Of a DNA stretch of 36,281 bases, positions 1-34,215 are shown piece after piece. The notes beneath the pieces were generated by a model. That model was not told the DNA's origin and did no database searches. It saw nothing but the letters and a program-made list of their open reading frames with translations. The translations under genes and the position numbers were made by a program. The stretch covers positions 1-36,281 of the IMG/VR virus record IMGVR_UViG_3300021963_000352; one strand, 5' to 3'. The DNA comes from a virus. Within the stretch, counting starts at the first letter, position 1; every line of letters starts with the position of its first letter.

Positions 1-359
1 ACTACCGTTGTTGTATTATGTGAAACTATGTTATTGGTATAATATATGTTTCCGCCATTAACATCAACCAAATCATACATATTAGATTTAGTTTCTGTAA
101 TCTCTATTGATGAAATTTTTTCTATACCTTCAGAAGTTTGGATTTCATCACCAACTACTAGGTCTTCACAAAATACTTGATTCCAGTTTTTGTCTATAAA
201 AATATGCTTATCAGCACATATTAAATATTTTCCAGATTCTGTAGTTACAATCCACTCATCATATTCTATAGTTTTTGCAATTCCAGAAAAATCTTGCCAC
301 CCGGATGGTGTCTCAACTTCCCACTGACTAGAATTAAATTGTTCTATAAATTTATTCAT
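1..359 (-). CDS. terL: Split-intein C-fragment (IntC) fused to C-terminal part of large terminase gp17 (partial, runs off window)
   Basis: This short gene is read from an ATG at 359-357 to the window edge. It encodes a 115-residue intein C-fragment (15-359) ending in the splice signature IVSHN, followed by C-extein residues T-T-T-V-V. These complete the Walker A loop (GK|TTTVV) of the packaging ATPase broken off in the gene at 1340-1738. The block B region is LICADKHIFI, with the conserved His but Ala in place of the usual Thr three residues before it. Blocks F and G are YDLVDVNGG...IVSHN. The +1 residue is Thr, a legal splice nucleophile. The N-terminal stretch (VETPSGWQDFSGIAK) resembles the equivalent part of the AceL-TerL IntC as I remember it. 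The ATG overlaps the endonuclease stop by eight bases (ATGAATAA) and has no evident Shine-Dalgarno sequence, so translational coupling is likely. The rest of the ATPase and nuclease domains lies outside the window. Confidence 0.9.
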   Translation of the reverse strand, partial: MNKFIEQFNSSQWEVETPSGWQDFSGIAKTIEYDEWIVTTESGKYLICADKHIFIDKNWNQVFCEDLVVGDEIQTSEGIEKISSIEITETKSNMYDLVDVNGGNIYYTNNIVSHNTTTV

Positions 360-1380
360 TTAAGAAATTTAAGCACTTTGATACACATTCATCCGGATTA
401 TTTTTATAATCCTCTTCTTTAATATGTAGCACATTATATCCAGAACTAATTAATATTTCATCACGAACACTATCCCTCAATTTATTTGGATTATCAATCT
501 TATGTTTATTATGCCAATATGTGCCATCAAATTCTATTATTTTTTTTAAGTTAATATCTATAAAATCGGGAAGAAGCATTCTATGAGAAGTCTTTAATCT
601 ATATTCATTGTTAATGCCACTATAATCCGGATTTTTATTATCATCTAATTCAGCGAAAAATATATTATTTTTTTCTATTAAATTATTGTAAATTTTCCAA
701 AATAATTCTTGGGAAACTTTAGAAAAGTTACTACACTTAGTTTTTTTACAACTATTTTTCCATTTCTCTTGCCTATCCACCCATCTTTGTATACCATCCT
801 CCTCCCCATATTTTTCAATGCATTTTTGGAGTGTAAATGTAGTTTGCCTTTCCCTTAGTTTTTCTTTTGCCTCACTTTCAGTAAAACCTCTTTTTATCCA
901 ATATTTTATTGTGGTACTATTGTTACCATTATTTTTAGTGGAATCTGAAACTTTTTTTATAAGTTTTTCTTTATCTATTTTATCCGAGTAAATGAATTTA
1001 TCTGAAAATGGTGAATATTTTCCGCCGTGATTATATGCCGGATTTTTATCTCCTTTTATTCTCTCCGATTGATACTGTATATAATTATTACTTCTAATAA
1101 TATTTCCGTGTTTACTTTTATATTCTAGTGTTGTGATTTTGTGAGTTCTTGTTATATGGGATGTTAAATCGTGTGCTATTAAACCACATATCTTACATTC
1201 CACTGCTCCTTCTTTTAACAATTGTTCTTGAGTTTTAATTAAACCATATTTAATTTTATATTCATTATAATTGTTATATCCGTGTTGTTTTCGGATATGG
1301 TTAGATAATTCTCTTCCTCCACATAAAACTTTTCCACAATCAAGACAAGTCAGAATTGTTTTCTTCCTCGATTTTGCCAT
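352..1380 (-). CDS. Homing endonuclease inside the fractured terminase intein (zinc fingers plus EDxHD/Vsr-like nuclease)
   Basis: This 342-aa free-standing endonuclease gene sits between the two intein halves. Residues 12-33 (C-x2-C...H-x4-H) and 62-80 (C-x2-C...H-x4-H) form two zinc-finger-like DNA-binding units. Residues 112-121 (KNPAYNHGGK) resemble a NUMOD3-type motif. Residues 159-210 have the YWIKRGFTESEAKEK...QTTFTLQKCIEKYGEEDG...RW pattern seen in phage homing endonucleases. The C-terminus (271-325: PDFID...IIEFDGTYWH...RDEILISSGY) is a Vsr-like/EDxHD nuclease fold with E283, D285 and H290 as likely catalytic residues. The start is set by a strong AGGAGA ribosome-binding site at 1386-1391. 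The first 41 bases overlap the end of the IntN gene in another frame, and the stop overlaps the IntC start. By family logic it should cut intein-free terL alleles at the P-loop and spread the cassette. Its exact cleavage site is not visible here. Confidence 0.9.
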   Translation of the reverse strand: MAKSRKKTILTCLDCGKVLCGGRELSNHIRKQHGYNNYNEYKIKYGLIKTQEQLLKEGAVECKICGLIAHDLTSHITRTHKITTLEYKSKHGNIIRSNNYIQYQSERIKGDKNPAYNHGGKYSPFSDKFIYSDKIDKEKLIKKVSDSTKNNGNNSTTIKYWIKRGFTESEAKEKLRERQTTFTLQKCIEKYGEEDGIQRWVDRQEKWKNSCKKTKCSNFSKVSQELFWKIYNNLIEKNNIFFAELDDNKNPDYSGINNEYRLKTSHRMLLPDFIDINLKKIIEFDGTYWHNKHKIDNPNKLRDSVRDEILISSGYNVLHIKEEDYKNNPDECVSKCLNFLNE

Positions 1381-1738
1381 AAAGTTCTCCTGCAGTTAGT
1401 TCTATAATTTCTCCGGTGATTTTATTTCTCACCTTCATAGATGTATTTATATGAAAGCACTTTCCAACTTGGCGTGGCATCTTCGCTATGTTAAATCTGT
1501 TCTTATGAAAGTTGCTGACTAATCTCTCCTGAAAGGGCCACATATTAAACTTAACAAGACCATCATCAACATTAACAATCTTGATGTATTTCTTGGCAAA
1601 ATAAACAGGGTCTTCCTTACAAGTTAAGAACTCAATAATTTGTTCTTCGGTAAATTGTATTGGAGTATTTGCTCTCTTTAGATTTGGGTTGGAGAGATAT
1701 GCATCACCTATCTTTAGTTGAATGTCTTGAATATCCAT
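1340..1738 (-). CDS. terL: Large terminase gp17, N-terminal fragment fused to split-intein N-fragment (IntN)
   Basis: This 132-aa protein has two parts. Residues 1-93 are the start of a T4 gp17-like packaging ATPase: the EEQIIEFLTCKEDPVYFAKKYIKI segment, an adenine-binding Q-motif-like FNMWPFQ, and the start of Walker A, MPRQVGK. At residue 94 (codon 1457-1459) the sequence changes to a Cys-initiated intein N-fragment of only 39 residues (CFHINTSMKV...), with block A and a TAGELYGKI stretch, then a stop. Split inteins usually break after block B, with about 100 residues in IntN. Here block B is in the C-fragment, so the split is of the atypical short-IntN kind. The fragment cannot be an ATPase alone, since the P-loop Thr and all later motifs are in the gene at 1-359. 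The start is five bases after the preceding gene and has only a weak AAGGAA-like signal. The last 41 bases double as the 5' end of the endonuclease gene. Confidence 0.92.
   Translation of the reverse strand: MDIQDIQLKIGDAYLSNPNLKRANTPIQFTEEQIIEFLTCKEDPVYFAKKYIKIVNVDDGLVKFNMWPFQERLVSNFHKNRFNIAKMPRQVGKCFHINTSMKVRNKITGEIIELTAGELYGKIEEENNSDLS
1386..1391 (-). promoter_or_regulatory. Shine-Dalgarno site for the homing endonuclease
   Basis: AGGAGA lies five bases before the ATG at 1380, within the IntN coding sequence (codons for the A-G-E-L stretch). It is stronger than the signals in front of either terminase fragment and decides the endonuclease start. Confidence 0.75.
1444..1451 (-). promoter_or_regulatory. 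Possible T4-type late promoter inside IntN
   Basis: The octamer TATAAATA lies on the minus strand about 63 bases upstream of the endonuclease ATG, within the codons for H-I-N-T near the start of IntN. It matches the T4 late-promoter consensus and could give the endonuclease its own transcript. In DNA this AT-rich the octamer is expected a few times per strand by chance, so position is the only extra support. Confidence 0.35.
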
Positions 1739-32203: not shown

Positions 32204-32530
32204 TTAACGATTTACTTCACGAAGATTATAATTGTCGGAATTTAGATATTTTAATAACTCAATTGCAACTAGTCTGGGATTTCCTTCGCCGCAAGTGTAG
32301 ACATCAATTGCTGTACAACCATTTTCAGGCCAGGTGTGGCAGGATACATGACTTTCTGAAAGTGCAATGACAATGGTACAACCTTGGGGAAGAAAACAAT
32401 GAGAAAAAATGTTTAAAATAGTCATATTTGCCCGATTAATACCCCTCTCCATTGTTTTTTGGAGAGATATTACATCATTTAAGAGGTCAAATTTGACATC
32501 GTACACCTCCAAAAGGAGATGAGTTCCCAT
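32204..32530 (-). CDS. speD: S-adenosylmethionine decarboxylase proenzyme (bacterial-type SpeD)
   Basis: SpeD makes decarboxylated SAM, the aminopropyl donor for spermidine; it is a known auxiliary metabolic gene of cyanomyoviruses. From ATG 32530 the product is 108 aa (MGTHLLLEVYDV...). An in-frame TTG at 32545 would add five residues, but neither start has a strong ribosome-binding site. The self-cleavage region is LSESHVSCHTWPE: cut before Ser60, which becomes the pyruvoyl cofactor, with His65 and Cys80 (VYTCGEG) as the other conserved processing residues. All three are present, so the enzyme should be active. Numbers shift by five with the TTG start. It is isolated by a strong upstream terminator and so probably has its own promoter; an AATAAATA-like octamer lies about 30 bases upstream. 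Confidence 0.93.
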   Translation of the reverse strand: MGTHLLLEVYDVKFDLLNDVISLQKTMERGINRANMTILNIFSHCFLPQGCTIVIALSESHVSCHTWPENGCTAIDVYTCGEGNPRLVAIELLKYLNSDNYNLREVNR

Positions 32531-32578
32531 TGAATACTGTTCCAATTATGATTGTAGTAAAAATTTATTTATTTCATT

Positions 32579-33682: not shown

Positions 33683-34165
33683 TTAATTCTCCAATAAATG
33701 TTTAAAAGTTTTATTATTTACAATATAAGAAATTGTAGATCTAGTGACACCATACATCTTTCCCAGTTTAATAGTTGTATAATTTTTGGTATTATATAAC
33801 TTTCTTATTTCAATTACATCTTTGTCTTTTAATTTAGATGCACCATTATGTTCACCTTTTTGGTGACCATTATAACATCTACCTTTGTTTATCTTATCTT
33901 TTACATTATCTAGATTTGTTCCTGCAAATAAATGCAATGGATTTACGCAGGATTGATTATCACATTTATGGAGACAATGTAGATTACCTAAAGATTTTTC
34001 ATAGTGTAATTCGTATGATACTCTATGTGCTTTAAGAGTTTTCTTATTATGACATATTACCCCATATCCACCTCTTAAATAATTTATTGCTCCTTTCCAT
34101 TCCCAACATTTGTTTTCGTCAAGAATGTCTGGAAGATACTTGCAAAATTGTTCTTTTAAATCCAT
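33683..34165 (-). CDS. HNH homing endonuclease (HNH_3 type with C-terminal HTH)
   Basis: This 160-aa endonuclease is read from MDLKEQFCKYLPD at 34165. An in-frame ATG at 34198 would lie upstream of the transcription start predicted by the promoter at 34187-34215. CWEWKGAINYLRGGYGVICHNKKTLKAHRVSYELHY leads into the HNH core HCLHKCDNQSCVNPLHLFAGT, where the metal-site His and the CxNPxH element are intact. The C-terminus (LKDKDVIEIRKLYN...LGKMYGVTRSTISYIVNNKTF) is a helix-turn-helix for target DNA binding. It is a typical free-standing mobile endonuclease of T4-like phages, inserted here between the AbrB-like gene and the glycosyltransferase. It overlaps neither and seems complete. Confidence 0.9.
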   Translation of the reverse strand: MDLKEQFCKYLPDILDENKCWEWKGAINYLRGGYGVICHNKKTLKAHRVSYELHYEKSLGNLHCLHKCDNQSCVNPLHLFAGTNLDNVKDKINKGRCYNGHQKGEHNGASKLKDKDVIEIRKLYNTKNYTTIKLGKMYGVTRSTISYIVNNKTFKHLLEN

Positions 34166-34186
34166 AAAAATGTAAGTTGCATTCAT

Positions 34187-34215
34187 ATCATACAACATTA
34201 TATATCAATTGTCAA
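34187..34215 (-). promoter_or_regulatory. Sigma70-like early promoter for the HNH gene
   Basis: On the minus strand, TTGACA (34210-34215) and TATGAT (34187-34192) are separated by exactly 17 bases. The -35 is perfect and the -10 differs from consensus at one base. TTGACA overlaps the stop of the AbrB-like gene. Transcription would start near 34180, leaving a very short leader before the ATG at 34165. Confidence 0.65.

Follow-up and report, generated by a model that had tools for sequence, protein, structure and literature searches.

How a phage could assemble a working DNA-packaging motor when the gene for its large terminase subunit (terL; gp17 in T4) is broken within the ATP-binding loop is the question raised by one end of the IMG/VR virus record IMGVR_UViG_3300021963_000352. 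The window considered here is the whole of this record (36,281 bases), an incomplete genome whose minus strand holds, by matches of its genes, a T4-like structural module. The virus is a freshwater, T4-like phage related to cyanophages; the N-terminal part of its gp17 (gp17-N) is nearest, among named phages, to that of Synechococcus phages (S-SRM01, 77% identity). At the left edge of the window lie three overlapping minus-strand open reading frames (ORFs), which encode gp17-N fused to an N-terminal intein half (IntN), an endonuclease, and a C-terminal intein half (IntC) that leads back into gp17. We consider it very likely that terL is fractured here at its Walker A motif by a split intein accompanied by a homing endonuclease gene, with protein trans-splicing, a nested endonuclease start, coupled re-initiation and homing operating as proposed below.

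All features of the locus are on the minus strand. The first ORF (132 amino acids (aa), 1340–1738) comprises 93 aa of gp17 ending in PRQVGK, which is half of the Walker A motif, followed by 39 aa starting CFHINTS. The gp17-N segment (93 codons, 1460–1738) matches T4 gp17 (2o0h; phmmer E 2e-13) in an alignment that reaches, and ends at, the Walker A lysine, and it also matches PHROG 5989, terminase large subunit (E 2e-23). IntN (1340–1459), which reads CFHINTSMKVRNKITGEIIELTAGELYGKIEEENNSDLS and a stop codon, was assigned by its position, by the Cys (Cys1) that stands straight after PRQVGK, by the junction seen against empty alleles and by conservation among relatives. The endonuclease gene (342 aa, 352–1380) overlaps IntN by 41 nucleotides (nt) and IntC by 8 nt; its ATG (1378–1380) is codon 27 of IntN and lies behind a Shine–Dalgarno-like AGGAGA (1386–1391) within the IntN codons for AGE. 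The third ORF (1–359) holds IntC (115 aa, 15–359), with block B (CADKH) and blocks F and G (ending VSHN), and then the first codons of the gp17 C-part (1–14; TTTV plus GT, ACAACAACGGTAGT), which the contig end truncates. The ATG of IntC (357–359) and the TAA stop of the endonuclease (352–354) overlap in ATGAATAA (352–359). A first-pass annotation of the window had described these three consecutive genes with the same lengths and junctions. PDB and PHROG searches match both IntC and gp17-N, which stay below cut-off in Pfam and NCBIfam, and Terminase_6N gave no match in the window.

Four other IMG/VR contigs (L001–L004) contain these three ORFs, overlapping as in the window, and continue in frame into the gp17 C-part, as the first-pass annotation had expected beyond TTTVV. 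This C-part is complete in L001 and L003, and that of L001 matches a PHROG terminase large subunit at 2.9e-62; with its N-part in the window and a C-part of the same family in these relatives, the interrupted gene is a T4-type large terminase. Between the window and L001, the ratio of nonsynonymous to synonymous substitution rates (dN/dS) is 0.09 for gp17-N, 0.13 for the endonuclease and 0.09 for IntC, indicative of purifying selection. Because L001–L004 share the layout and its parts are under purifying selection, the arrangement is neither a chance product nor an assembly error.

Empty alleles fix the point of insertion. Five contigs (L027, L033, L034, L035 and L038) encode a gp17-N protein identical to that of the window and lack the insert; for L027, L033, L034 and L038, which were compared as DNA, gp17-N is 97.5% identical to the window. 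The empty allele reads GTTGGCAAA followed directly by ACGACAACGGTAGT, and the window reads GTTGGAAAG, then the insert (TGC...AAT), then ACAACAACGGTAGT. Since these contigs have an identical gp17-N and no intein, the insert can be placed exactly, between the Lys and the Thr of the Walker A motif (Lys^Thr), and the two extein ends rejoin as a Walker A motif as had been anticipated. The window and L001 share 90% aa identity in IntC and 83% in the endonuclease on diverged terL backgrounds, both of which have close intein-less relatives (L067–L069 for L001); judging from these comparisons, the element is mobile.

The intein assignment draws on sequence matches, on structure prediction and on the residues of the splicing reaction. 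IntC matches CatC (6dsl; phmmer E 1e-11), gp41-1 and VidaL, and its AlphaFold model (predicted local distance difference test score, pLDDT, 92.9) adopts the HINT fold, with VidaL (6vgv; E 8.5e-7, TM 0.80, 29% identity) and Cat (E 1.2e-6) as top Foldseek matches and many other inteins below. A HINT fold had been predicted in the first-pass annotation, as had an atypical split, and the 39-aa IntN and the location of block B in IntC are both features of atypically split inteins. The window retains Cys1, the block B His, the penultimate His, Asn115 and Thr+1. The insert is, by all these features, an atypically split class 1-type intein plus an EDxHD-like homing endonuclease gene, placed between the Walker A Lys and Thr.

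The likeness to the AceL-TerL/VidaL type proposed initially holds in part. Homology of IntC, a short IntN and a terminase host are shared with AceL-TerL, GOS-TerL and Cat, IntN being 25 residues in AceL and 37 in GOS (PMC11766414), but the insertion site and the +1 residue differ, as those inteins sit at E^CEFLG with Cys+1 and that of the window at Walker A Lys^Thr with Thr+1. One relative (L083) carries at this second TerL site, E^CEFLG, a split intein of nearly Cat consensus (171 bits); because the Cat-like intein sits there, the window intein is not an allele of the Cat family, to which its IntC is homologous. TerL inteins of the P-loop, inserted between the Walker A Lys and Thr, are known from mycobacteriophages (PMC5050341), and a homologous mini-intein occupies the same Lys^Thr point in Ackermannviridae such as Vi01 (41.5% for the Vi01 intein). 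Unlike the window intein, those of the mycobacteriophages and Vi01 are contiguous, and Vi01 lacks an endonuclease gene where the window intein is split. Fractured genes, which combine split inteins at the break with an EDxHD endonuclease gene between the halves, were reportedly described by Dassa et al. in 2009. The window feature belongs to this kind, as first proposed: the host gene is divided between two ORFs, intein halves stand at the break and an EDxHD-like endonuclease gene lies between them. It differs from the described type in its TerL Walker A host, its short IntN, the endonuclease start inside IntN and the existence of dual-coding contiguous relatives.

The endonuclease has a zinc-finger-like N-terminal region (Pfam ROS_MUCR, 4.5e-7) and a Vsr/DUF559-like C-terminal region (Pfam DUF559, 1e-6), and residues E225, D272, E283, H290 and D307 vary little or not at all among 10 relatives, with E225, D272, H290 and D307 as candidates for the conserved E, D, H and D of EDxHD enzymes. 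In Foldseek, a low-confidence model (pLDDT 60) finds, for the nuclease domain, the EDxHD enzyme I-Bth0305I (probability 0.99, E 0.04) and Vsr (probability 0.97, E 0.16). The enzyme appears, on this modeling, to be EDxHD-like, in agreement with the initial assignment. In Caulobacter phage Cr30 (L114 3911–6629), a free-standing homologue immediately precedes a terL that is intact and has no intein.

To place the window among its relatives, we classified 101 distinct P-loop TerL junctions obtained from three scans with IntC queries and from earlier loci; all counts are among the matches listed and are not population frequencies. The gene is fractured with an intact endonuclease in 49 of the 101, fractured with a broken one in 2 and fractured without one in 14; 12 junctions are contiguous without an endonuclease, 10 are contiguous and have an endonuclease, or what is left of one, in another frame, and the N-part is absent from the contig in the remaining 14. 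The layout is accordingly not the rarity that the first-pass annotation took it to be. Residue 1 is Cys at every junction for which both halves are present (87/87), the intein ends in SHN in 86 of these 87, and the +1 residue is Thr or Ser. The Ala that replaces the block B Thr, initially singled out as unusual, is found in 80 of 80 scoreable P-loop relatives and is therefore a signature of the family, not an oddity of the window copy. Other phage ATPases, which by motif look like gp41 and gp46, carry the same IntC family with a linked endonuclease at apparent Walker A sites (C-exteins SMWLHN.. and TTIINALSY..). In a 462-kb uncultured phage (LR756500.1; L118 4294–8789), a P-loop-fractured terL with an endonuclease has an IntC that ends in SSQ and not SHN, and a terminase-like ORF with a degenerate Walker A motif lies directly downstream of it.

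We propose that a single mRNA would be translated from gp17-N/IntN, that the endonuclease would start from its own Shine–Dalgarno sequence and ATG inside IntN, and that IntC–gp17C would start by coupled re-initiation at the ATG overlapping the endonuclease stop. IntN would then dock onto IntC, and trans-splicing would remove both to give a whole Walker A motif (RQVGKTTTVV) and an active motor. In mixed infections, the endonuclease would cut intein-less terL, and repair would copy the whole insert so that the element spreads; the "atypical" split position would simply be where the endonuclease gene sits. The window has no clear Shine–Dalgarno sequence for IntC, and the IntC ATG overlaps the endonuclease stop, an overlap kept in L001, L004, L005 and L006; together these suggest that IntC may be translated by coupled re-initiation.

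Several points weigh against this reading. Splicing, homing and translational coupling are all deduced from sequence. The window, an incomplete genome, includes just 14 nt of C-extein, such that the gp17 C-part is seen in relatives and not in the window itself, and an exact-match search yielded no contig that extends the window leftward. The HINT-fold model covers IntC; the EDxHD match comes from the low-confidence endonuclease model with its weak E-values; and 25 of the 61 endonuclease-bearing relatives have no start inside IntN.

Three other explanations were weighed. The split intein may splice while the endonuclease no longer homes, either as a free-standing gene or as one kept for the translational coupling of IntC, in which case the insert would be inherited vertically. 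In its favor, L005 and L006 have lost the endonuclease and retain its last codons before the IntC ATG; the absence of a clear IntC ribosome-binding signal together with the overlapping ATG points the same way, as does the homologue beside an intact terL in Cr30. Against this, the endonuclease of the window is intact and under purifying selection, and its patchy presence among near-identical phages fits active homing; we judge this explanation unlikely. Alternatively, the halves could be splicing-dead relics of an intein broken by the endonuclease gene, in a phage that uses an intact terL elsewhere or is nonviable. A 36-kb fragment leaves room for another terL, but all splicing residues are kept in the window, dN/dS is ≈0.09 for gp17-N and IntC, the arrangement recurs in many contigs, and the 243-kb record of L006 contains a single split terL and no intact one, the sole other match being short, weak and stop-containing, which makes a relic very improbable. 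Removal at the RNA level, with the endonuclease gene residing in a group I or II intron, we regard as barely credible: an interrupting endonuclease gene is a layout shared with introns, and ICP1 phages splice terL mRNA beside such a gene (PMC10448857), but here both endonuclease flanks are coding intein sequence with a HINT fold and all splicing residues, which is evidence at the protein level, and the intein boundaries fall precisely between the codons for Lys and Thr.

With terL read as a gene fractured by a trans-splicing intein and its homing endonuclease, the origin of the split site can be approached through the contiguous relatives. In seven of these (L160, L192, L205, L209, L212, L290 and L330), a full-length endonuclease ORF (278–313 aa, with EFDG..WH) lies in another frame, and the TerL–intein frame through it is stop-free, where synonymous shuffling gives a mean of 14–21 stops and a minimum of 7 (2000 trials). 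Among 49 fractured alleles, stops number at least 2.5 per 100 codons even in the alternative frame that has fewer of them. The linker-frame protein of the dual-coding alleles shows 29–33% identity where the endonuclease shows 49–62%; as it is poorly conserved, what is kept is the openness of the frame and not its sequence. The seven alleles are partly related; on the IntC tree, the dual-coding state takes a minimum of three separate changes. L166 is likewise a contiguous intein-containing terL ORF overlapped by the endonuclease in a second frame. A reading of L160, L166, L192 and L194 as contiguous inteins whose endonuclease domain is in frame was rejected, since the endonuclease occupies another frame.

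An out-of-frame endonuclease has been published for ShiLan (HNH, no intein; PMC11855218). Like the seven relatives, ShiLan has a second-frame endonuclease within a stop-free insertion, but it has no detectable self-splicing domain and its enzyme is of the HNH type, whereas in the present alleles an intein forms the outer frame and the gene within it is EDxHD-like. We found no report of an out-of-frame endonuclease inside an intein in a literature that was partially covered. Endonuclease domains in inteins are all placed at one conserved site, as published (PMC6801210); that statement concerns in-frame domains, and the present endonuclease is a separate gene or frame located elsewhere. An ATG with a Shine–Dalgarno sequence at the IntN site is present in 36 of the 61 endonuclease-bearing alleles (10 of 10 contiguous ones) versus 8 of the 26 without an endonuclease (Fisher P = 0.02, only a guide because the alleles are related). 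Since the endonuclease start is often inside IntN, the "atypical" split site looks like an endonuclease insertion site. On balance, we somewhat favor a scheme in which the atypical split site of this family is the site of endonuclease insertion, off the canonical intein endonuclease site and with the endonuclease start nested in IntN, and in which the states are interchangeable: a contiguous form with a second-frame endonuclease and an intein frame kept stop-free by selection, a fractured form that has or lacks the endonuclease, and a form re-fused once the endonuclease has been deleted. Under this scheme, dual-coding contiguous inteins would be the source of fractured genes, which could also revert.

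Other relatives illustrate later stages. Decay is seen in the nearest ones, L005 and L006. Only the end of the endonuclease remains in L005. In L006 (4508–6001; IMGVR_UViG_3300042560_001323), a TnpB-like gene (398 aa; OrfB_IS605, Cas12f1-like_TNB) sits between remnants of both endonuclease ends, between IntN and IntC, such that the split intein seems to have exchanged one nuclease for another. In L131, the IntC of which is almost the same as in the fractured L128, there is a single ORF with endonuclease zinc-finger codons left as a linker; we read this as a fracture that a deletion has healed. Among the four states, 26 changes are required on the IntC tree, which is built on 113 columns and leaves many forks, the deep ones included, unresolved. 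The terL halves, with IntN and IntC, lie on opposite strands ≈77 kb apart in Vibrio phage vB_VmeM-32 (KU160494; L113 and L119) and ≈172 kb apart in Salicola phage SCTP-2 (MF360958; L347 and L350); with the halves so placed, splicing would have to bring together proteins from unlinked genes. In both phages, the C half also has a further intein or break.

The Lys^Thr point is also occupied by other elements. Six contigs (L028–L032 and L039) whose gp17-N is identical or nearly so to that of the window carry there an unrelated, contiguous 984-nt intein with Ala1, a LAGLIDADG_3 endonuclease and a THN end (e.g., L028 6280–7263), which we take, by motif, to be class 3-like. A class 3-like Ala1, LAGLIDADG_3 intein is found at the same point in Synechococcus phage B23 (L115 2986–5628). 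Elsewhere in terL, Vibrio phage Va1 (MK387337.2; L111 2062–5479) has the gene fractured at the E^C site, with a second ORF in which an endonuclease-like region continues in frame into IntC and the gp17 C-part. In L005 (6001–6981), terL is apparently broken twice, at the P-loop and at the second TerL site; the fragment that follows the latter has Ser as its first residue (SVSYETCLNTQ..), like GOS-TerL, a Ser1 intein. L045 (2385–3677) has a third insertion site (VVS^TPKG), filled by a contiguous intein-like insert of 1293 nt. Away from terL, the window contains a second homing-endonuclease-like gene, of the HNH type (33683–34198, minus strand; PHROG 59, E 2e-26), and an S-adenosylmethionine decarboxylase gene (32204–32545, minus strand; PHROG 3125, E 5e-31), a host-like metabolic gene.

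The family provides many new split inteins with a short IntN for protein labeling, some of them in cultured phages (vB_VmeM-32 and SCTP-2). For the phage itself, the packaging ATPase should be inactive until two proteins have been spliced at the ATP-binding loop. The relatives form a natural allelic series at one codon boundary, which may be empty, filled by a class 3-like full intein, contiguous, dual-coding, fractured, decayed or TnpB-occupied; they show the formation, decay and healing of broken genes and make the origin and reversal of fractured genes testable.
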